Virus record (IMG/VR): IMGVR_UViG_3300006802_000607
Coordinates: 1-23,114 of that record
Origin: a virus
Length of the DNA: 23,114 nucleotides
Direction: 5' to 3' (one strand)
Below are positions 2,735 to 17,136 of the stretch, piece by piece. The translations under genes and the position numbers were made by a program. Positions within the stretch are counted from its first letter, which is position 1; the number at the start of each line of letters is the position of its first letter. The notes under the pieces are model-generated. The model searched no databases and was not told the DNA's origin. It worked only from the letters and a program-made list of their open reading frames with translations.

Positions 2735-4072
2735 ATGGAAAATCCAGTTTTTAGTAATAAAATTACAAAGGTTGTAATTACACCAAGAAGATCAGCTAAC
2801 GGTGAGGAGGCTAGAGGGTTTGATCCTGTCAGGATTGATAATGTCGTTGGTGAGATTTTATATTACGAAACCCTTTTCTCCCCAACTACAACTGCTACCA
2901 TTATCATTGCCAATCCAAATGCCAAGCAGAAAATAACAGATGCGTTTCAGATTCAGGGTGGTGAGAAGATTGAATTTGAACTGATGGATTATGTCAGTAA
3001 GAATAATAAGGATACTGGATATGGAATAAAACAAACAATGTATGTGGACCAAGTGACCGCATATACCAGTAATCAATTTGTTGAGGTTTTCAAACTGAAT
3101 TGTAGTAGCACTTGGAATGATACACTAGATAATATTCAAGTCACAGGAACTTTATCTGGAACGGCAAGTAACATTGCAAATCAAATTTATAAGACCAACT
3201 TTAATAAAGACATTCCTTATAGAGATCAGTCTACAGAGCAAATCAGTGCTACCTTTGGACTGACGAAGAAAGATGAACCTTTCCCAGCAATTATTGAACT
3301 TGCTTCTAAAGCATCAACCAAAAATAATGCTGGGTTCTTCTTCTATCAGACAAAGTTTGGTCATCACTTTAAATCTCTTGATGGTCTGATACAAGAAGGT
3401 AAAGCTAAGAAAAATCAGCAAACTGGAGCTGCCTATGAATATACCTATACTGGTGTGAACCCAGGTGTAGAAAATCCAAATGTTTCGGCAGTAACAATCT
3501 TACATTTAGATCAGAGGTTTAATAACTGGACGTTCAAAAAAGCTGCTAGATATGATCAAGGCATCAAAGCATCTTTTGATCCTATCACTGGGCAACCTTT
3601 TTATCTGCCAATCGGTGGTGGTCAAGCACCAGAAAACTATTACAAGTATGAAGGACTTGACTTAAAAACTGTCTTTGAGAATCCAGAAGCTTTCCAAAAA
3701 GCTATTGAGGCATCTAACTTTAAATTCAGTGGAAAACCTGAAATGATTTTTAGGAACCCAGATGATTTCTGTATCCTATCTGAGAATCCATATAAAACAA
3801 AAGTTCCAGCAACAGCCCGTTATACCAATTTCTTTGCTAGAATGATAACGATGGTTGTGCCAGCAAATACCTCTCTCATTGCTGGTAGTGCCGTTAAATT
3901 GAATATCAAAAAAGTTAAAGAGGGGGTCAACTGCTCAACTGAAGATGAGATTGTTGACACTGATGCTGCTGGACTATATATTGTAGCAGCAGTTTGTCAT
4001 GCATTTGACCAACAGAAAGCATACTCTTCGGTATTCTTAGTCAGAGATTTACCTTTCAGGACGGAGAACTAA
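2735..4072 (+). CDS. Baseplate hub subunit, gp27-like
   Basis: 445 aa. A clear SD (AGGAG at 2723-2727) precedes the ATG. The protein is beta-rich with no membrane segment. It begins with N-terminal strands around an FDPVRIDNVVGEILYYE stretch and closes with a pattern of the type LYIVAAVCHAF...YSSVFLVRDL. That closing pattern resembles the final strand pair (G-x-Y-x-V-x-x-V-x-H) of hub proteins of the T4 gp27 / VgrG-hub class. T4 gp27 is 391 aa, forms a trimeric ring at the tail tip and carries the gp5 spike. The gp5-like OB-fold gene lies two genes downstream, which supports the call. The gene ends directly against the ATG of the next gene with no gap. Assignment rests on fold pattern and gene order, so other hub-class proteins remain possible. 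Confidence 0.7.
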   Translation: MENPVFSNKITKVVITPRRSANGEEARGFDPVRIDNVVGEILYYETLFSPTTTATIIIANPNAKQKITDAFQIQGGEKIEFELMDYVSKNNKDTGYGIKQTMYVDQVTAYTSNQFVEVFKLNCSSTWNDTLDNIQVTGTLSGTASNIANQIYKTNFNKDIPYRDQSTEQISATFGLTKKDEPFPAIIELASKASTKNNAGFFFYQTKFGHHFKSLDGLIQEGKAKKNQQTGAAYEYTYTGVNPGVENPNVSAVTILHLDQRFNNWTFKKAARYDQGIKASFDPITGQPFYLPIGGGQAPENYYKYEGLDLKTVFENPEAFQKAIEASNFKFSGKPEMIFRNPDDFCILSENPYKTKVPATARYTNFFARMITMVVPANTSLIAGSAVKLNIKKVKEGVNCSTEDEIVDTDAAGLYIVAAVCHAFDQQKAYSSVFLVRDLPFRTEN

Positions 4073-4285
4073 ATGGAAAACATTGATCAGCACATTCAGA
4101 AGGATGAAGATCTTCTGAGTGACCCAACTATTTCCCCTCAGTCTAGACGACACACTGAGGAAGAATTGGAAGCATTGAAGGCATATAAAGAACATCATCC
4201 AGAAGATGCTCATGATCCAACCCCATTAGAATTGTATTGTGACACACACCCAGAAGCACTGGAATGTAGAGTTTACGACGATTAA
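4073..4285 (+). CDS. 70-aa protein with CP12-like C-terminal GAPDH-binding tail
   Basis: The ATG directly follows the stop of the hub gene, with GGAG about 7 nt upstream, and the stop overlaps the next start (TAATG). The N-terminal 30 residues are acidic and unrecognised. Residues 29-37 (TEEELEALK) sit where CP12 has its AWDxVEEL helix. Residues 50-70 contain C56 and C65 with exactly eight residues between them and end in ECRVYDD. This matches the C-terminal module of cyanobacterial CP12, where a disulfide closes the loop and the acidic tail enters the GAPDH active site to shut down the Calvin cycle. The N-terminal Cys pair of full CP12 is absent. Free CP12 genes are known auxiliary metabolic genes of cyanophages, but this one lies between hub and spike genes. 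It may be an inhibitor, or a baseplate protein that re-uses the module. Confidence 0.75.
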   Translation: MENIDQHIQKDEDLLSDPTISPQSRRHTEEELEALKAYKEHHPEDAHDPTPLELYCDTHPEALECRVYDD

Positions 4286-4959
4286 TGGACTCAGTTGTCG
4301 GCTTCATTGTAGAACTTGATTCTAATCAAAACATCAAACAAACTGGATATGGTGTTAGATACCGTGTTCGTAGACTTGGTATAGATTCACCAGCTACACC
4401 AGCAAACAAACTGCCTTGGTTTGATGTCTTGCTTCCACCAACAGAAGGATCTGGTGATGGTTTGAAAGCCAGATCCGTCAACTATTCTGTTGGTGATATG
4501 GTTGTCGTTGAACACATGGATTCATCCAAACAACGTGGATGGATTAAAGGACATTTTGCCAGAACATCACTGATTCAATATAGTGGTGATGTAAAGACAG
4601 CAGATCAAACTACAGCATCTGGTGGTGATCAGGGTGGTGAAATTACTTTACCAACAAAAGTAAACAAGGGTAGGGGAAAACCAGGAGAATCAAAAACAGC
4701 AGATTCTGAAGAAGAGAAGAACGCAATAGAAGCAGTAAAGAAAGGAACTGGTGCCACTGATTCCACAAAGAAGGAAGATCCTAATGCTGATGTTCCCATT
4801 GCTCTAAAAGTTGGTCGTGAAGCTCCATTTGTTGTTATTGGTGATGATGGAAAAACTGAATTCCAAAGAAGTCTTGAAAGGGTTGGAGCAACGGAAGAGG
4901 AAGCAGCACTACAAGCAGCAGAAGTACGAAAGGAAACATTAGATCTATTACGTCAATAA
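4285..4959 (+). CDS. Baseplate spike protein with gp5-like N-terminal OB fold
   Basis: 224 aa, starting in a TAATG overlap with the CP12-like gene. Residues 1 to about 95 read as the OB-fold domain of T4 gp5 and related spike proteins: a V-V-G-F-I-V-E strand, a GYGVRYRVRRLGI strand, a P-W-F-D-V-L-L-P-P motif, a Gly-rich turn, then YSVGDMVVVE and GWIKGHF. In gp5 this domain docks onto the gp27 ring. The rest (about 100-224) is hydrophilic, rich in K, E, T and Gly, probably disordered with a terminal helix. There is no lysozyme domain and no beta-helix, unlike T4 gp5 (575 aa). The beta-helical needle seems to be supplied by the gene at 6481-6987. The neighbouring gp27-like hub fits. The family call is fairly secure from the OB motif and gene order. 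Confidence 0.75.
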   Translation: MDSVVGFIVELDSNQNIKQTGYGVRYRVRRLGIDSPATPANKLPWFDVLLPPTEGSGDGLKARSVNYSVGDMVVVEHMDSSKQRGWIKGHFARTSLIQYSGDVKTADQTTASGGDQGGEITLPTKVNKGRGKPGESKTADSEEEKNAIEAVKKGTGATDSTKKEDPNADVPIALKVGREAPFVVIGDDGKTEFQRSLERVGATEEEAALQAAEVRKETLDLLRQ

Positions 4960-4962
4960 ATA
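4954..4962 (+). promoter_or_regulatory. Late promoter motif CAATAAATA
   Basis: The nonamer CAATAAATA overlaps the stop codon of the OB-fold gene and ends 22 nt before the ATG at 4985. The same nonamer occurs before the genes starting at 17163 and (minus strand) 11853 at nearly the same distance. It resembles the T4 late promoter (TATAAATA), which has no -35 element. Confidence 0.6.
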
Positions 4963-4984
4963 ATGACAAGGAGGTAACCTTATA

Positions 4985-6481
4985 ATGGCAACTGCTGCGG
5001 CACTATCAATTTGTCCTACTGGGTCTTATATTCCTGGTAATGATCCTAGTAGAGATAGGGATGACAATGCTTCTAATGGGTATTGCGTACAGCTTGCTAA
5101 GTGTGAGACTGATCCTGTCAACAAAATTACTAACACTATCAGGAACTTTCTGAGAGACGTAAAGAAAGTTCTTGCTTTTGCTGGTAATCTGAGAAGTGAG
5201 ATATACGCAGCAGCAGGCATTTTGAAAGAGGTTGGAGGTCTATTAGTAGGATCTCTGATGAATGCCTTGACAGAGAAGTTAAAGAAGTTAATAGAAGAAG
5301 GAATTAAAGCACTTTTAGCATCAACTGGTGGATTAGCATTACCATCTATCATTGCACTTCAACCAGCAATGAAAGCCCTTATCGAGGGTATGGTATGTTT
5401 GATGAACAAAATTATTGATGGTCTGTTTGACACTGCTGTTGATCTTCTTTCTAACGTAGTAGGTCAAGTCCAAAACATGGCTGCCTGTGCTGCTGAGCAG
5501 TTCTGTGGTGCTTTTATAAACCCAATCATTGATAAGATTGCTGATGGTGTAGGTGCTCTTCTTGGACCATTAGAGAAGATTATTTCCCCTGCCTTTAAGA
5601 TTGTAGATTTTCTCCTCGGTGCTCTTGATGCTATTAGTGCTATCAAGGGTCTTTTCCAGTGTAATGAAAAGTCTAAGTGTCCTACTGTTAATGGATACTT
5701 TGTTGGTGGTGGATTCTGTCAAGGTGATGAGCAAGAAGAACCATCAAAGGTAGATAAAGTTTTATCCAAGTTAAGTATTGCCAGAGGTGCAGCAAATCTT
5801 GCCAATGATTTCCAAGGACAATATGGTAATTGGGATATCTTTGGTGATGGGACTACTCTAAATGATAGTGGAATTGTAAATGCCAATGGCAGTTGCTACA
5901 CTGGCAATCCTCTTGCTTGTGGTGCTCCTAAGGTATCAATCTTCGGTGGTGGAGGTGCTGGTGCTGCTGGTAAAGCTATTCTTGGCAACATCGTTCAGAA
6001 CACAGAAGGACTGACTGACGTTGTTGACAAAGTTGGTAGTGTTGTTGGTGTAGAACTTCTCAGTGGTGGATCTGGTTATCAAACAACACCATTTGTTACC
6101 ATTAGTGATAGTTGTGGTATGGGATATGGTGGTTTTGCCAAGGCAAATATTAATGCTAAAGGGGAAGTAGAATCTATTACGGTTGTTTCTAGTGGAACAA
6201 TGTATCCAGTTGGAGAAGAAGTTCCACTTGGTATTGTTGATGCTGTAATTGAAGATCCTGGTTCCAACTACTCACCTACTGATACGATTGATGGATTTGA
6301 TATTGTCGTTAAAGATGGTAAGATCATCTCTGCCAGGATCAATAAGGTTACACCTGTAGATGGTCTTCCAACATTAAAGGTAAATACTAATACTGGTAGT
6401 GGTGCTATAATTAGACCTATTATCAATTCTCTTCCTGTGGTTGAGAAGAAACTCCAACAAGTTATTGACTGTATCGAATAA
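4985..6481 (+). CDS. Cys-containing baseplate/tail structural protein with GGSGY module
   Basis: 498 aa. This start is supported by a strong SD (AGGAGGT at 4969-4975), the best in the window, and by the late-promoter motif upstream. The N-terminus (about 1-40) is polar with several Cys. Residues about 45-230 are long amphipathic and hydrophobic helices rich in Leu, Ile, Ala and Gly that could insert in a membrane or pack in a bundle. After a Cys pair (CNEKSKC) comes a Gly-rich stretch (about 315-330). The C-terminal part (about 345-490) has the module LLSGGSGYxxxPxVxIxD followed by strand repeats, and a similar GSGY pattern occurs in the 1737-aa fibre protein. The stop overlaps the next ATG. 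Position between the OB-fold and beta-helix spike genes points to a baseplate role. The molecular function is unknown. Confidence 0.7.
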   Translation: MATAAALSICPTGSYIPGNDPSRDRDDNASNGYCVQLAKCETDPVNKITNTIRNFLRDVKKVLAFAGNLRSEIYAAAGILKEVGGLLVGSLMNALTEKLKKLIEEGIKALLASTGGLALPSIIALQPAMKALIEGMVCLMNKIIDGLFDTAVDLLSNVVGQVQNMAACAAEQFCGAFINPIIDKIADGVGALLGPLEKIISPAFKIVDFLLGALDAISAIKGLFQCNEKSKCPTVNGYFVGGGFCQGDEQEEPSKVDKVLSKLSIARGAANLANDFQGQYGNWDIFGDGTTLNDSGIVNANGSCYTGNPLACGAPKVSIFGGGGAGAAGKAILGNIVQNTEGLTDVVDKVGSVVGVELLSGGSGYQTTPFVTISDSCGMGYGGFAKANINAKGEVESITVVSSGTMYPVGEEVPLGIVDAVIEDPGSNYSPTDTIDGFDIVVKDGKIISARINKVTPVDGLPTLKVNTNTGSGAIIRPIINSLPVVEKKLQQVIDCIE

Positions 6482-7388: not shown

Positions 7389-7521
7389 GGAAGAACTCGA
7401 AGAACACTTTGAGTTCATCGTTGATCTTTGTCATCGTGAAAACATCACATTCATGTTTGAACACAATAAGAAATGGATGTGTCTTGTTCCTTACGAGGAA
7501 TACTTAAGTTACGGGGTGTAG
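7345..7521 (+). CDS. 58-aa Phd/YefM antitoxin-like protein
   Basis: The ATG at 7345 opens a 58-aa frame that overlaps the previous ORF and ends 10 bases inside the tRNA-Pro gene. The order of features is that of the Phd/YefM fold: an ITISREELEEHFEFIVDL helix, a short turn, strands ITFMFEHNKKWMCLVP, then the YEEYL signature. Family proteins typically read I-S-x-x-x-L-x-x-x...I-T-x-x-G-K-x-V-A-V-L-V-P-x-E-E-Y. Phd proteins bind DNA and neutralise a partner toxin. No toxin gene is visible next to it; the C-terminal toxin-binding tail of usual 70-90-aa Phd proteins is missing. A solitary antitoxin or a DNA-binding regulator is plausible. Recognition is by pattern only. Confidence 0.6.
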   Translation: MNTVTSTHPPITISREELEEHFEFIVDLCHRENITFMFEHNKKWMCLVPYEEYLSYGV

Positions 7522-7585
7522 CGCAGTTTGGTAGCGCATCCGCTTTGGGAGCGGGAGGTCGCAGGTTCGAATCCTGTCACCCCGA
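7512..7585 (+). tRNA. trnP-UGG: tRNA-Pro(UGG)
   Basis: A complete cloverleaf can be drawn. The acceptor CGGGGTG pairs with CACCCCG, and the D arm is GCGC...GCGC. The anticodon arm has loop TTTGGGA with anticodon TGG at 7546-7548, and the T arm is CAGG-TTCGAAT-CCTG. The discriminator base is A at 7585. The 3' CCA is not encoded and must be added by the host. The anticodon reads CCA and CCG/CCT by wobble, matching the Pro-rich late proteins. The first 10 bases overlap the end of the Phd-like ORF. Confidence 0.95.
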
Positions 7586-7588
7586 TAT

Positions 7589-7672
7589 GGGACGGTGGTG
7601 GAAGTGGTAGACACACCAGACTTAAAATCTGTTGAGAGCAATCTCGTGAGGGTTCAAGTCCCTCTCGTCCTA
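7589..7672 (+). tRNA. trnL-UAA: tRNA-Leu(UAA)
   Basis: An 84-nt class II tRNA lies three bases after tRNA-Pro. Acceptor GGGACGG pairs with TCGTCCT, with G-T wobbles at both ends of the stem. There is a D arm, an anticodon loop CTTAAAA with anticodon TAA at 7623-7625, a short variable arm (GAGAGCAATCTC) and a T arm GAGGG-TTCAAGT-CCCTC. The top anticodon-stem pair is a C/T mismatch. CCA is not encoded. It reads TTA and TTG codons. Confidence 0.93.
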
Positions 7673-7687
7673 TTAAACACAAAAACT

Positions 7688-8329
7688 ATGTGGTCAGACT
7701 ATTCCGATTATCTCTATCACACATTAAACTTAAATGTCGTTGATGTAGGACATGCGTTAGGTAAGAACGACGCAGTATTAGGTTCTGCTGTATATTCTGG
7801 TGACCATATTATAAAGTCAAGGGCAACCGTTATTGAGGATGGTGACACTCACATCTACAATAACATTGTCTATCCAAAGACAGGTCAGAATCTTCCATGC
7901 TTGGGTATGGATCTGATGTGTTTCTTTGAGAAGAAAGTTATCATCGTATTTGATTTTCAGCACCCAACACCACACTTTGATTGGTACAATCCTTTCATGA
8001 CTTGTCATCTTGGTGAGATGCTTGATAATACTTCAAAGGACATTAGATTCTTTGAACCTGGTAATCACTTCTCCAGGTACATCTATGTTCGTAAGTGTAC
8101 TGCTAGTGAGGTTCCCGACCATTTGGAATACTTCAAAAAGTATGTTGATGTCTATAAAAGGTTGTTAGATACAACAAAACCTACTGGTGAAGATACCAGT
8201 GTTTACAAGGAGTTTGACAAATATATGCTAGATCTTGATCCCGTTGGTGGATTTATGGAGAGTAAGTTTGGTAAAGAGTTTTCTCATGATTATGTCAGGA
8301 ACTTCTTATTTTCATATTGCGATTTGTAA
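7688..8329 (+). CDS. pebS: Phycoerythrobilin synthase PebS (ferredoxin-dependent bilin reductase)
   Basis: 213 aa. The frame stays open upstream through tRNA-Leu, so the ATG at 7688, 15 nt after the tRNA, is taken as start; there is no obvious SD. It is a ferredoxin-dependent bilin reductase: YPKTG-x-x-LPC-x-GMDLM, VIIVFDFQHP, RFFE-x-GNHFS, KP-x-GEDT and LDPVGG follow in the order found in cyanophage P-SSM2 PebS. The acids required for catalysis there (Asp105 and Asp206) correspond to Asp75 (GMD) and Asp184 (LDP) here. PebS carries out a four-electron reduction of biliverdin IXalpha to phycoerythrobilin, replacing host PebA plus PebB. The N-terminus begins at the conserved core, about 22 residues shorter than P-SSM2 PebS. 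PcyX or PcyA are less likely given the motif match. It is the last gene of the sigma70 cassette. Confidence 0.88.
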   Translation: MWSDYSDYLYHTLNLNVVDVGHALGKNDAVLGSAVYSGDHIIKSRATVIEDGDTHIYNNIVYPKTGQNLPCLGMDLMCFFEKKVIIVFDFQHPTPHFDWYNPFMTCHLGEMLDNTSKDIRFFEPGNHFSRYIYVRKCTASEVPDHLEYFKKYVDVYKRLLDTTKPTGEDTSVYKEFDKYMLDLDPVGGFMESKFGKEFSHDYVRNFLFSYCDL

Positions 8330-11922: not shown

Positions 11923-14900
11923 ATGCCTCTTAGTAAGTTAGATAATTTTATCAAGAACACCCAGGGTCGTATTTTATATGTGAACCCAAACGATCTTGAT
12001 GCTACTGATAGTATTGAGAATCAGGGTAACTCTCTGACGCAACCCTTCAAGACTATTCAGAGAGCACTGCTGGAATCTGCCAGATTCTCTTATGTAAGAG
12101 GTAAAGATAATGACCTCTTTAACAGGACAACCATTATGTTGTATCCTGGTGATCACATTGTTGATAACAGACCAGGATTCGCAATCAAGAATGTAGGTGG
12201 TGTTGGTAAGGTAGTAAGTCCATCTGGATCTGAGACAGATGCTACAACCACACTTAATCTCACTCTTACATCCAACTTTGATTTAACTCAAGAAGACAAT
12301 ATACTCTATAAGTTTAATAGTGTCAACGGTGGTGTTATTGTTCCCCGTGGTACATCTATTGTTGGTCTTGATCTTAGAAAGACAAGAATCAGACCTAAGT
12401 ATGTTCCCAACCCCACTGATAATAATGTAGGACAGTCTGCTATCCTGAGATTGACTGGTGGTTGTTACTTCTGGCAGTTTACTTTCCTTGATGGTCAAGA
12501 TAATGAGTTGGTTTATACCGACCCTGCCACTTTCGATACCACTAATAGATCTCTTCCCACATTCTCTCACCACAAACTCTCTGCTTTTGAGTTTGCTGAT
12601 GGTGTAAATGATGTCCCAGGATACAGTGGTCTGACTGACCTCAGCATGTATTATTACAAGCTGACACATGCTTTCCAGTCCGCATCTGGTCGTCCTGTTT
12701 CATTCCAATGGCCAACTGAGCAGGGTGATTTTGATAAGGTAAGACCTGAATATGAGATTGTTGGTGCTCTTGGTGTAGATGCTGCTGTTGTAACATCTAT
12801 GTTTGCTGGTGATGGTGCAACACCTACTGCACAGGTCACTGTTACTACTCAGAATCCTCATGGATTCACCGCAGGAACTCCTGTTAAGATTCGTGGTGTT
12901 AATATTTCCAACTATAACATCTCTGCGTTTGTTACATCCGTAATCAGTGCTACATCCTTCACTTATCAGTTGCCAAGTTTCCCAGCAAACTTGATCGCAA
13001 CTCCAGACTCTTCTAATGCTACTGTAACTATTGAGTCTGATACGGTTAGTGGTGCTTCTCCATATATCTTTAACGTATCCCTTAGATCTGTCTGGGGTAT
13101 GCAGGGTCTACATGGTGATGGTGGTAAGTGTACTGGTTTCAGATCTATCGTTCTGGCACAGTTCACTGCTATCTCTCTCCAGAAAGACGATAGAGCATTT
13201 GTAAAGTATAACGAAAGCTCCAGACTGTATGATGGTATCGTTTATACCAAGGTAACTGGTGGTGATCTGTCTTCTGGATCTAGTTCTACCAACAGTGCTA
13301 CTGTCTATCACTTAGACTCTGATGCTGTCTATAGAAGTGGATGGGAAACTACTCACGTTAAGTTGAGCAACGATGCTGTATTCCAGATCGTTTCGGTGTT
13401 TGCTATCGGTTTCAATAAGCACTTCGAAGCATTAAGTGGTGCCGACGCATCTATCACCAACTCTAACTCTAACTTCGGTCAGATTGCTCTGGTTGCTGAT
13501 GGATTTAAGGCAGCAGCATTTAACCGTGACGACCAAGGTTTCATCACTAATGTCATCACACCAAAAGAAATTTCTGCTACTGAAAAGCAAGTAAACTGGT
13601 TACAACTTGATGTCAATCTTACTACGTCTGTAGGTATTTCCAGTCAGTTGTATCTCTATGGATACTCTGACCAGGATATTACTCCAACATATCTGACACA
13701 AGGATTTAAGATTGGTGCCAGACATGGTGAGACACTGTATCTCCCAGGCACAAGTGGTATTGGTACTCTGACTGCTACGATTCAGATGCCTGATAATGAG
13801 GTATCTTCTGGTTCTACTATTGCTTATGGTAGCAAGTCTGGTATTAAAGAAGCATTTGTTATTTCTGGTCCAACTGATAATGAACTGACTCTTGCCAGTG
13901 ACATTGGTTTAGTAACTGGTGAGTCCATTAAAGTTGTCAGTCAGACTGGTGATCTTCCAGAAGGATTAGAACCACATAGAACTTACTATGCTATCAGAGT
14001 TTCTGCCACAGAGATTAAGATTGCTTCTTCCTTCTCTGATGCCCTGAATGATAATGAAGTATCTATCGATGGTGGAGCTGCTCTGCTTATCCGTAGTAGA
14101 GTAAGTGACAAAAATGCTGGTGAGATTGGTCACCCAGTTCAGTTTGATACTGTCAACAATAACTGGTTTGTCCATGTAAATGCTGGTAACGATATTTACA
14201 CTGGTCTGTCCACATTCACTAGTGCTTCTACTGCTAGACCTTACGTTAAGAGACGTGATGATACTAGAGGTCTTGACTCCAAGATCTATCGTGTTGGTTA
14301 TGTCATTCCTAAGGAATCTCAAGATGCTAGAGATCCTGGTCAGGGATATGTTCTCCAACTCTCTAGTCAGACAGGATTTGCACAAACTGATTATGCTACT
14401 GCCACGACATTACAGAGATCTGATGTTCTCTACGGCAGAAACAATAGTTTCATCTCTACCTGCTCCGCATCTGGAACGACAGTAACATTCAGATCTGATC
14501 TTCCTCACGGATTAGATGTAGGTGATAAAGTTATCTTTACTAACATCAAGAGTAGCACAAACTCTGTAGGTGCTGCTAATAGTGGTTATAATGGTAAGTT
14601 TGCTGTAACTGGTGTAACTGAAGACCTTACATTCACCACTGGCATTATTGATGTTGATGGTGTAACACATAACCCTGGTACATTTACGGATACAACTGGT
14701 TCTAGAAACCTCTCTCTGCCTAGGTTCGAGAGAAATGATCTCCAATCTAACTTATTCATTTACAGAAACACCACGGTTCAGTCTTACGAGAAGGACAAGT
14801 CCGATGGTCTTTATATTCTCGAACTGTTAGATGCTGACTATGCTCCAGAGGTAGAGTTCACCAGTCAGAAGTATAAGCCCAACGTTGCGGATTACTACCC

Positions 14901-17136
14901 ACAGTTTGACAGAGATAATACCTCTGCTAACCCACCTGCTGCTGCCTCTTATGCTAAGAGAGCACCTGTCGGTGAAGTTGTAACAAACGATCAGAAGAAT
15001 AGTCTCACTAGAAATACCATTGATAGTCTCTTCAAGAAGACTAAAGTTGGTAAAGAAATCAGTTCTGTTGATGCCACTGCTGGAATTACAACATTAACAT
15101 TTGACAGAAGGCACGGATTCAATGGTGCTCTGGGTATTACCACCATCACTGATAATACTACATCTTATGCTGATGGCACATATTATAATGTAAAACTGCT
15201 GAATGATGGCACATCTACATGGCAAGGTGCTACTGCTAAGGTATTCGTATCTGGTGGTGTTATTGCTGATGTTGACATCATGAACCCTGGTTCTGGTTAT
15301 GCTTCGGCACAGAACCTTGATATTGAGAGCATCGGTGGTGAAATTGGTATCGGAACTACAACAATCGCAGTTAATGTTGGTGATGTCGTTCAGGTAACTG
15401 GTCTTGGAACAACTGCTAGCACTCACTATAGAATTGATAGCATTGTAAGTGATACTGAAATTGCTATTGCCAGAACTTCTACAGACCCAGTAATCCTACC
15501 AAACTCTTACGTTTATAACGTTGGTGTTGCTGTTACTATCTCTAGCACAACCTATGATGCTCCAAGTGGTATTACTACCTTTGTCTGTAGCAATCCACAT
15601 AACTTGATTGCTGGTAATAAGTTTGAACTTCTGAATAAGAGTAATGGCAGACTTGGATCTTTCACTGTTCGTGAAAGAGTTGGTATCAATACATTCAGTG
15701 CTATTACTACCGATGAGATTACTTCTCCACACTATATCTACAAGCATGGATTAGAGGCAAATGAGCAATCTACTTCCATCACTGAAGAGTTTGGTGGTAG
15801 ATTCTTCGCAGTCTACGGTGGTGTAAGTGATCAGATTGTTGATGCTCTTACTGCTACAGGAACTGCAATCAAACTGCCTAACGTTAATCTGGCAACCACT
15901 AAGAAGTTTGCTCTGGGTGATTACATCCAGGTCAATCGTGAGATCATGAGAGTCGTAAGTTCTGCTCTTGGTGGTGTCGGTAGTGATGAGATTACTGTTG
16001 TTCGTGCTATGTTTGGCACAAGAGCAGTTACACATGATGCTGGTTCTAGAATCCAGAAGATTGTTCCTCTGCCTGTAGAACTGAGAAGAAACTCTATCAT
16101 GAGAGTTTCTGGTCATACATTTGAATATCTTGGTTATGGTCCTGGTAACTATTCCACAGGTCTGCCACAAGTTCAGACAAGAACTCTCTCTGATTTGGAA
16201 GAGTATCTGTCTCAAGCACAAGATAGAAGTGGTGGCATCGTTGTTTATACTGGTCTGAACAATGATGGTGACTTCTACATTGGTAACAAGAAGATTAACT
16301 CCTTCACTGGTACTGAAGAAACATTTAACGTTCCCGTTCCTACCGTAACTGGTTCTGATTCCACTGCTTCGAGTCAGAGATTTGATGAACTGGTTATCAC
16401 CAACAGCATCTCTGTTGAGGGTGGTGAGAATAACAATATTCTCAGTAGTTTCGATGGTCCAGTCAACTTTGGTAATGAAGTTTCTACCGATGGCAATGTA
16501 ACGATCAATGGTAATCTTACCCTTGCTGGTGGATTAACCATTGACCCAACTGCCACTGCGTTGGCAACACCAACCTTTGGTAACATTCGTATTGCTCAGA
16601 CTGATTTAAGCACCATTGATGTTGCTAGTGGTGATATCACAATCAACGCAGGAATGGGTGCCTCTGTTGGTATCAATACCATCACAACTATCGATGGTGA
16701 CCTGTATGTAACTGGTAACATCACTGCCTACTTCCCATCTGATAGAAATCTGAAGGATCAAATCCAGATCATTGCCGATCCAGATGAGAAGATTAAGAAA
16801 CTGAGTGGTAATAGCTTTATCTGGAATGAAAAGGCAGGTAAGGGTAAGCAAGGTCAGATTGATTATGGTGTAATCGCACAAGAAGTCGAGAAAGATTTCC
16901 CCGAACTGGTTGTCACCGATAAGAATGGTGTCAAGAAAGTACGTTATGAGGGTCTGACTCCTGTGATGATTGAAGCAATCAAGGACTTGATTGGTAGGGT
17001 TGAGGCTATTGAAGGTGGAAGACCAAATGGTCCTAAACCAGGAGCACAAATGCAGATTCCACCTTATCCATATCCTTATCCCCCATATCCATATCCTTAT
17101 CCCCCACAACAACCACCCCAGGAACCACAACAATAA
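11923..17136 (+). CDS. Giant tail-fibre/virion structural protein with S74 intramolecular chaperone domain
   Basis: 1737 aa. The N-terminal part (about 1-300) has the repeated strand-turn pattern of a beta-helix. Modules of the form T-V-x-x-x-x-P-H-G-x-x-x-G-x-x-V recur near residues 305, 853, 1056 and 1218. A PGSGY segment near 1125 resembles the 4985-6481 product. From Ser1606 (SDRNLK) to about 1700 is a peptidase S74 / endosialidase-type intramolecular chaperone: FIWNEK, DYGVIAQEVEKDFPELV and VRYEGLTPVMIEAIKDLI are typical. In that family the domain assists trimer folding and cuts itself off just before the Ser. After it comes a (YPYPYPP)x2 tail. The gene follows a late promoter, has only a weak SD, and is adjacent to two further fibre genes. 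Specific host receptor unknown. Confidence 0.85.
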   Translation: MPLSKLDNFIKNTQGRILYVNPNDLDATDSIENQGNSLTQPFKTIQRALLESARFSYVRGKDNDLFNRTTIMLYPGDHIVDNRPGFAIKNVGGVGKVVSPSGSETDATTTLNLTLTSNFDLTQEDNILYKFNSVNGGVIVPRGTSIVGLDLRKTRIRPKYVPNPTDNNVGQSAILRLTGGCYFWQFTFLDGQDNELVYTDPATFDTTNRSLPTFSHHKLSAFEFADGVNDVPGYSGLTDLSMYYYKLTHAFQSASGRPVSFQWPTEQGDFDKVRPEYEIVGALGVDAAVVTSMFAGDGATPTAQVTVTTQNPHGFTAGTPVKIRGVNISNYNISAFVTSVISATSFTYQLPSFPANLIATPDSSNATVTIESDTVSGASPYIFNVSLRSVWGMQGLHGDGGKCTGFRSIVLAQFTAISLQKDDRAFVKYNESSRLYDGIVYTKVTGGDLSSGSSSTNSATVYHLDSDAVYRSGWETTHVKLSNDAVFQIVSVFAIGFNKHFEALSGADASITNSNSNFGQIALVADGFKAAAFNRDDQGFITNVITPKEISATEKQVNWLQLDVNLTTSVGISSQLYLYGYSDQDITPTYLTQGFKIGARHGETLYLPGTSGIGTLTATIQMPDNEVSSGSTIAYGSKSGIKEAFVISGPTDNELTLASDIGLVTGESIKVVSQTGDLPEGLEPHRTYYAIRVSATEIKIASSFSDALNDNEVSIDGGAALLIRSRVSDKNAGEIGHPVQFDTVNNNWFVHVNAGNDIYTGLSTFTSASTARPYVKRRDDTRGLDSKIYRVGYVIPKESQDARDPGQGYVLQLSSQTGFAQTDYATATTLQRSDVLYGRNNSFISTCSASGTTVTFRSDLPHGLDVGDKVIFTNIKSSTNSVGAANSGYNGKFAVTGVTEDLTFTTGIIDVDGVTHNPGTFTDTTGSRNLSLPRFERNDLQSNLFIYRNTTVQSYEKDKSDGLYILELLDADYAPEVEFTSQKYKPNVADYYPQFDRDNTSANPPAAASYAKRAPVGEVVTNDQKNSLTRNTIDSLFKKTKVGKEISSVDATAGITTLTFDRRHGFNGALGITTITDNTTSYADGTYYNVKLLNDGTSTWQGATAKVFVSGGVIADVDIMNPGSGYASAQNLDIESIGGEIGIGTTTIAVNVGDVVQVTGLGTTASTHYRIDSIVSDTEIAIARTSTDPVILPNSYVYNVGVAVTISSTTYDAPSGITTFVCSNPHNLIAGNKFELLNKSNGRLGSFTVRERVGINTFSAITTDEITSPHYIYKHGLEANEQSTSITEEFGGRFFAVYGGVSDQIVDALTATGTAIKLPNVNLATTKKFALGDYIQVNREIMRVVSSALGGVGSDEITVVRAMFGTRAVTHDAGSRIQKIVPLPVELRRNSIMRVSGHTFEYLGYGPGNYSTGLPQVQTRTLSDLEEYLSQAQDRSGGIVVYTGLNNDGDFYIGNKKINSFTGTEETFNVPVPTVTGSDSTASSQRFDELVITNSISVEGGENNNILSSFDGPVNFGNEVSTDGNVTINGNLTLAGGLTIDPTATALATPTFGNIRIAQTDLSTIDVASGDITINAGMGASVGINTITTIDGDLYVTGNITAYFPSDRNLKDQIQIIADPDEKIKKLSGNSFIWNEKAGKGKQGQIDYGVIAQEVEKDFPELVVTDKNGVKKVRYEGLTPVMIEAIKDLIGRVEAIEGGRPNGPKPGAQMQIPPYPYPYPPYPYPYPPQQPPQEPQQ
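17065..17106 (+). repeat. Perfect 21-bp tandem repeat x2 (Tyr-Pro codons)
   Basis: Positions 17065-17085 and 17086-17106 are identical 21-bp units, in frame, each encoding YPYPYPP near the C-terminus of the 1737-aa protein. The identity at third codon positions suggests recent duplication or slippage. Confidence 0.9.

Follow-up and report, generated by a model that had tools for sequence, protein, structure and literature searches.

The canonical CP12 of cyanobacteria and plants (PF02672; PDB 6gfo, 3qv1, 6kez) has an N-terminal cysteine pair, an AWD_VEE core and, within its C-terminal 40 residues, a disulfide loop and the tail that binds GAPDH. The diversity of the family, which includes cyanophage forms with a CP12-like C-terminus, has been reviewed (PMC3906501; PMC9406205). 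In cyanophages, cp12 (PHROG 627; T4-GC337/63 of Sullivan et al. 2010) is known as an auxiliary metabolic gene encoding a Calvin-cycle inhibitor, and its variable position and that of talC, including locations 'near gp5', have already been noted (Sullivan et al. 2010, PMC3037559). The late-promoter motif of cyanophages, NATAAATA, has also been described (PMC2984593).

We have analysed a 23,114-nucleotide stretch of viral DNA (IMG/VR record IMGVR_UViG_3300006802_000607; hereafter the window), in which an earlier note had picked out a small gene with a CP12-like tail inside a baseplate operon. With a probability of roughly 0.93, we consider this gene to be the auxiliary metabolic gene cp12 of a T4-like picocyanobacterial cyanomyovirus, lying in one of its usual places, between the hub gene and gp5 and acting on GAPDH as the host CP12 does.

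The window encodes a complete short CP12

The features of the gene itself are the following:

4073–4285, plus strand: cp12, ATG start, encoding a 70-residue short (C-type) CP12 (Pfam, PHROG 627, identity to host CP12)
4238–4267, plus strand: C56-x8-C65, the predicted redox disulfide loop of CP12 (translation; 132 of 133 phage homologues)
4262–4282, plus strand: C-terminal ECRVYDD, corresponding to the tail segment bound to GAPDH in solved complexes (alignment with PDB CP12 chains, including the GAPDH complexes 6gfo and 3qv1)

The translation of 4073–4285 is MENIDQHIQKDEDLLSDPTISPQSRRHTEEELEALKAYKEHHPEDAHDPTPLELYCDTHPEALECRVYDD. Residues 3–69 match positions 4–70 of the 70-position Pfam CP12 profile PF02672 with an E-value of 8e-15 and a score of 55.8 bits, some 33 bits above the curated cut-off of 22.7 bits, and the protein matches PHROG 627 at 8.6e-29. 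A tblastn search retrieved homologues from 372 phage records, every one of them a cyanophage, and several already carry the annotation "CP12 carbon metabolic regulator". In a sequence comparison with the PDB, CP12 chains were the sole significant matches, GAPDH-CP12 complexes among them; the C-terminal 40 residues are aligned, and the acidic ECRVYDD end falls on the ECRIYDD ends of the PDB chains. The CxxxPxxxxC pattern is present as C56 DTHP EALE C65, with its central proline. In the AlphaFold model (mean pLDDT 90.5) a helical hairpin is joined by a C-terminal helix and tail; the model's best fold match in the PDB is 6gfo_F, CP12 bound to cyanobacterial GAPDH, and the match is weak (E 0.14) because the fold is small and flexible.

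The earlier note had based its CP12 call on the C-x8-C spacing and the ECRVYDD end. Both are indeed present and far beyond chance, and the Pfam search that it proposed was positive; since the profile match spans nearly the whole protein and not the tail alone, the call was right and stands on firmer ground than claimed. Judged by its sequence, 4073–4285 encodes a real, complete short CP12. Because CP12 extends over the entire protein, it cannot be read as a structural protein to which a CP12 tail is attached.

Whether the N-terminal half resembles CP12 depends on the CP12 chosen for comparison. The window protein shares with canonical CP12 the C-terminal 40 residues, with the disulfide loop and the GAPDH-binding tail, but it has just two cysteines, both C-terminal, and thus no N-terminal cysteine pair; its translation is free of tryptophan, and the AWD_VEE core is absent. 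To this extent the earlier description of the N-terminal half as unlike CP12 is accurate. It does not apply to the CP12 of marine Synechococcus hosts (L099–L104), which is 59% identical to the window protein from end to end, the shared letters being MKSIDEHIKKD...RH..EELE.L..YKKEHPEDSHDPTPLELYC... These host proteins likewise have only two cysteines and end in ECRVYDD, and they probably correspond to the CP12-C(M) class (Stanley et al. 2013; reviewed in PMC3906501). One difference lies in the linker, where phage CP12 has DPTISPQSRRH and the marine Synechococcus linker is two residues longer. Lacking the N-terminal cysteine pair, the window CP12 is not placed in the canonical (N/C) class; a C-terminal pair only, no AWD_VEE and full-length similarity to marine Synechococcus CP12 place it in the short C class. 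Its N-terminal half is ordinary for the short picocyanobacterial and phage form.

In other cyanophages (for example S-T4, DSL-LC03, S-SCSM1 and P-HM2) the protein, its length, the C-x8-C spacing and the YDD/YED tail are the same as in the window. When the phage homologues were checked for loss of the cysteines and the tail, a possibility raised by the earlier note, 132 of 133 had exactly two cysteines in the C-x8-C arrangement, which leaves the CP12 identity unrefuted; tryptophan is missing from 131 of the 133. Among cp12 homologues pairwise dN is about 0.04–0.08, with dS above 1.2 or saturated, a pattern that indicates strong purifying selection. A phage-type CP12 with a YED end and 54% identity is also found on a contig binned as a Euryarchaeota MAG (L105), most likely a misbinned cyanophage contig.

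cp12 lies between a tail hub gene and a split spike gene

The neighbouring genes and the junctions between them are as follows:

2735–4072, plus strand: gp27-like baseplate hub protein, of the family of the T4-GC15 'tail protein' (PHROG 350, 3.6e-46; AlphaFold/Foldseek)
4070–4075, plus strand: hub stop TAA (4070–4072) abutting the cp12 ATG (4073), with GGAG about 7 bases upstream
4283–4287, plus strand: TAATG, in which the stop codon of cp12 and the start codon of the spike gene share one base, read from the sequence
4285–4959, plus strand: gp5-like spike, N-terminal part with the OB-fold region (PHROG 1922, 4.5e-14, profile 32–183)
4956–4962, plus strand: ATAAATA late-promoter-like box before the second spike gene, overlapping the stop codon of the first spike part
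4985–6481, plus strand: remaining part of the gp5-like spike as a separate gene (PHROG 1922, 2.9e-62, profile 199–654)

The AlphaFold model of the hub (pLDDT 65, with residues 264–361 low) matches T4 gp27 (1k28, 2z6b) and VgrG-type hubs with Foldseek E-values of about 1e-12. The gp27-like hub upstream and the OB-fold spike gene downstream are therefore as the earlier note had named them. Its statement that the gene is fused by overlaps to both holds for the one-base overlap with the spike gene, which likely couples the translation of the two; the hub stop merely abuts the cp12 start codon. No ATAAATA box was found within 60 bases upstream of the window cp12.

Two traits set the locus apart from other cyanophage cp12 loci: the window and 14 further loci have cp12 at most 10 bases from the hub stop and without an ATAAATA box of its own, and the next gene in the window, the spike, is in two pieces. 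The two pieces (4285–6481) are 224 residues, with the OB fold, and 498 residues long, and the second is preceded by a strong AAGGAGGT site in addition to the box. The same split and box are seen in six other loci (L020, L031, L033, L070, L071 and L074), a recurrence on which we reject an assembly error as its cause; in other relatives gp5 is a single open reading frame. T4 gp5 undergoes cleavage at the protein level, which the split gene in the window recalls.

Elsewhere in the window, positions 7512–8329 of the gp5-tRNA region contain a further auxiliary metabolic gene, for a ferredoxin-dependent bilin reductase (PF05996, 1.2e-18), behind the genes for tRNA-Pro and tRNA-Leu. Its reading frame is listed as starting at 7595, a position within the tRNA-Leu gene, and probably begins further downstream in reality. 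A tail fibre protein of 1737 residues, encoded at 11923–17136, carries an endosialidase-type chaperone domain at its C-terminus (Peptidase_S74, 1.6e-10).

cp12 behaves like an insert in the hub operon

Most of the T4-like cyanophages examined have cp12 behind this same hub gene and ahead of gp5. The hub-cp12-gp5 order of the window is shared by S-T4, DSL-LC02, DSL-LC03 and S-SCSM1, and is also found in S-WAM2 and S-RSM4; cpeT, tRNAs or other small genes lie between cp12 and gp5 in S-RIM8, S-SSM5, Syn10, P-SSM4, S-RIM2, S-H25, S-CREM1, S-SZBM1 and others. Other positions occur: cp12 adjoins talC in P-HM2, lies in a talC/gnd/zwf region in S-TIM5 and is found among small genes in S-SRM01. Close relatives of the window CP12 are encoded by 220 stretches in IMG/VR, the best 80 of the 220 having 86–94% protein identity, and further ones came from a second scan. 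In most related contigs a near-identical CP12 is found on its own; overall, 103 of the 133 phage cp12 loci are located away from the hub genes.

We checked nine genomes with a stand-alone cp12 for the empty site, and in all nine gp5 directly follows the hub gene. Hub and gp5 can thus do without cp12, which behaves as a single-gene insert in the hub operon. No sequence difference was seen between nested and stand-alone CP12s. The cp12 DNA tree requires at least four changes between nested and stand-alone positions, and hence the position has shifted repeatedly; with an alignment of 210 columns, the exact number and direction of these changes are unsure.

Nested and stand-alone copies differ in their promoter box

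We sorted the loci according to how far cp12 lies from the hub gene and whether the late-promoter motif is present, counting as nested those with cp12 at most 10 bases from the hub stop, the window included. Stand-alone cp12 has ATAAATA 26–33 bases before the ATG in 102 of 103 loci (71 distinct 40-base leaders), whereas the box is found in none of the 15 nested loci (12 distinct leaders); where cp12 lies 11–200 bases after the hub, 6 of 15 loci have it. About four copies of this 7-mer are expected by chance per 23 kb window on both strands. Near-copies inflate the box counts; nonetheless, the contrast between nested and stand-alone loci is complete. In three loci (L045, L058 and L085, around 5970–6250) cp12 lies 23–28 bases after the hub behind a degenerate box, TTAAATAG, and gp5 has its own ATAAATA box just after cp12, which suggests intermediate steps between a stand-alone and a fully nested cp12.

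For nested IMG/VR loci the nearest upstream box is usually found at a distance of 4.5–5.7 kb, close to where the hub operon begins. The equivalent distance in the window would reach beyond its left end, placing the hub promoter outside the 23 kb record. Nested CP12 is probably made from the hub transcript and coupled to translation of the tail proteins. From the nested position one would predict that CP12 is produced along with the hub proteins, perhaps at a later time or a lower level than when driven by a stand-alone box. This prediction of timing is a tentative one because a box does not always go with one timing class: the cp12 of P-HM2, despite its box at -31, belongs to the middle expression cluster. 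The contrast in promoter box and the empty site are a small, modestly new detail.

Metabolic inhibitor or virion protein

The earlier note had offered two alternatives, a Calvin-cycle inhibitor gene in a late operon and a virion protein whose CP12 mimic is delivered into the host. The former agrees with our results. The latter would have CP12 incorporated into the tail hub, or accompanying it, and injected, inhibiting carbon fixation at the moment of infection; were nested CP12 loaded with the hub and to enter with the DNA, GAPDH would be inhibited before any phage gene is expressed. What speaks for this is position only: cp12 sits between hub and spike with one abutting and one overlapping junction, and this placement recurs in many cyanophages. 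However, CP12 is the same protein whether nested or stand-alone (86–94% identical among close relatives), with no added structural domain, hub and gp5 are directly adjacent in the nine genomes with a stand-alone cp12, and with 103 of 133 phage loci elsewhere there is no permanent linkage to the hub genes. In S-SZBM1, cp12 (SSZBM1_64) lies 24 bases after the hub gene SSZBM1_65 and upstream of gp5 (SSZBM1_61). The 30 proteins of its CsCl-purified particles include SSZBM1_65, and CP12, a small protein subject to the detection limit, is absent from them (PMC9146016, Table 1). The hub was detected with only three peptides, and gp5, which the text names as detected, is not listed in Table 1 (PMC9146016); low-copy hub proteins are therefore near the detection limit, and the absence of CP12 is moderate evidence only. 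The part of the S-SM1 virion account available to us names gp5 and T4-GC15 and makes no mention of CP12 (PMC3037559). Taken together, a delivered virion protein is very unlikely, and the window CP12 is probably not a virion part.

The window protein could also be a CP12-derived regulator with a new host target in place of GAPDH, given that the half of canonical CP12 that binds phosphoribulokinase is missing together with the N-terminal cysteine pair and AWD_VEE. However, the marine CP12 of the host itself is reduced in the same way, and what is retained and conserved is exactly the GAPDH-binding tail, which makes a new target very unlikely. That the last 20 residues resemble CP12 by chance has a vanishingly small probability, refuted as it is by the Pfam match across the whole protein, the 372 cyanophage records and the very low dN.

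A probable host-like role in the infected cell

As an auxiliary metabolic gene, the window cp12 would most likely share a long transcript with the hub gene, whose promoter lies upstream of the window, and its translation would keep pace with that of the adjacent genes. The CP12 made in the infected cell would act like that of the host: the oxidised C56-C65 loop and the acidic tail would block host GAPDH by entering its active site, carbon fixation would stop, and ATP and NADPH from the pentose phosphate pathway would be left for phage nucleotide synthesis. We infer this GAPDH inhibition from the family and from published work. Without an N-terminal cysteine pair or AWD_VEE core, binding of phosphoribulokinase is likely weaker or different.

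We regard the window cp12 as one more ordinary representative of a known family of auxiliary metabolic genes, found at a site that the literature has mentioned before. It illustrates that a metabolic gene can be stably housed in a tail operon and remain an ordinary auxiliary metabolic gene instead of turning structural. Nested and stand-alone copies constitute a natural experiment, in which the same Calvin-cycle inhibitor is placed either on its own late-type promoter or on the hub transcript, and the promoter setting may determine the time and the strength of the shut-off of carbon fixation.
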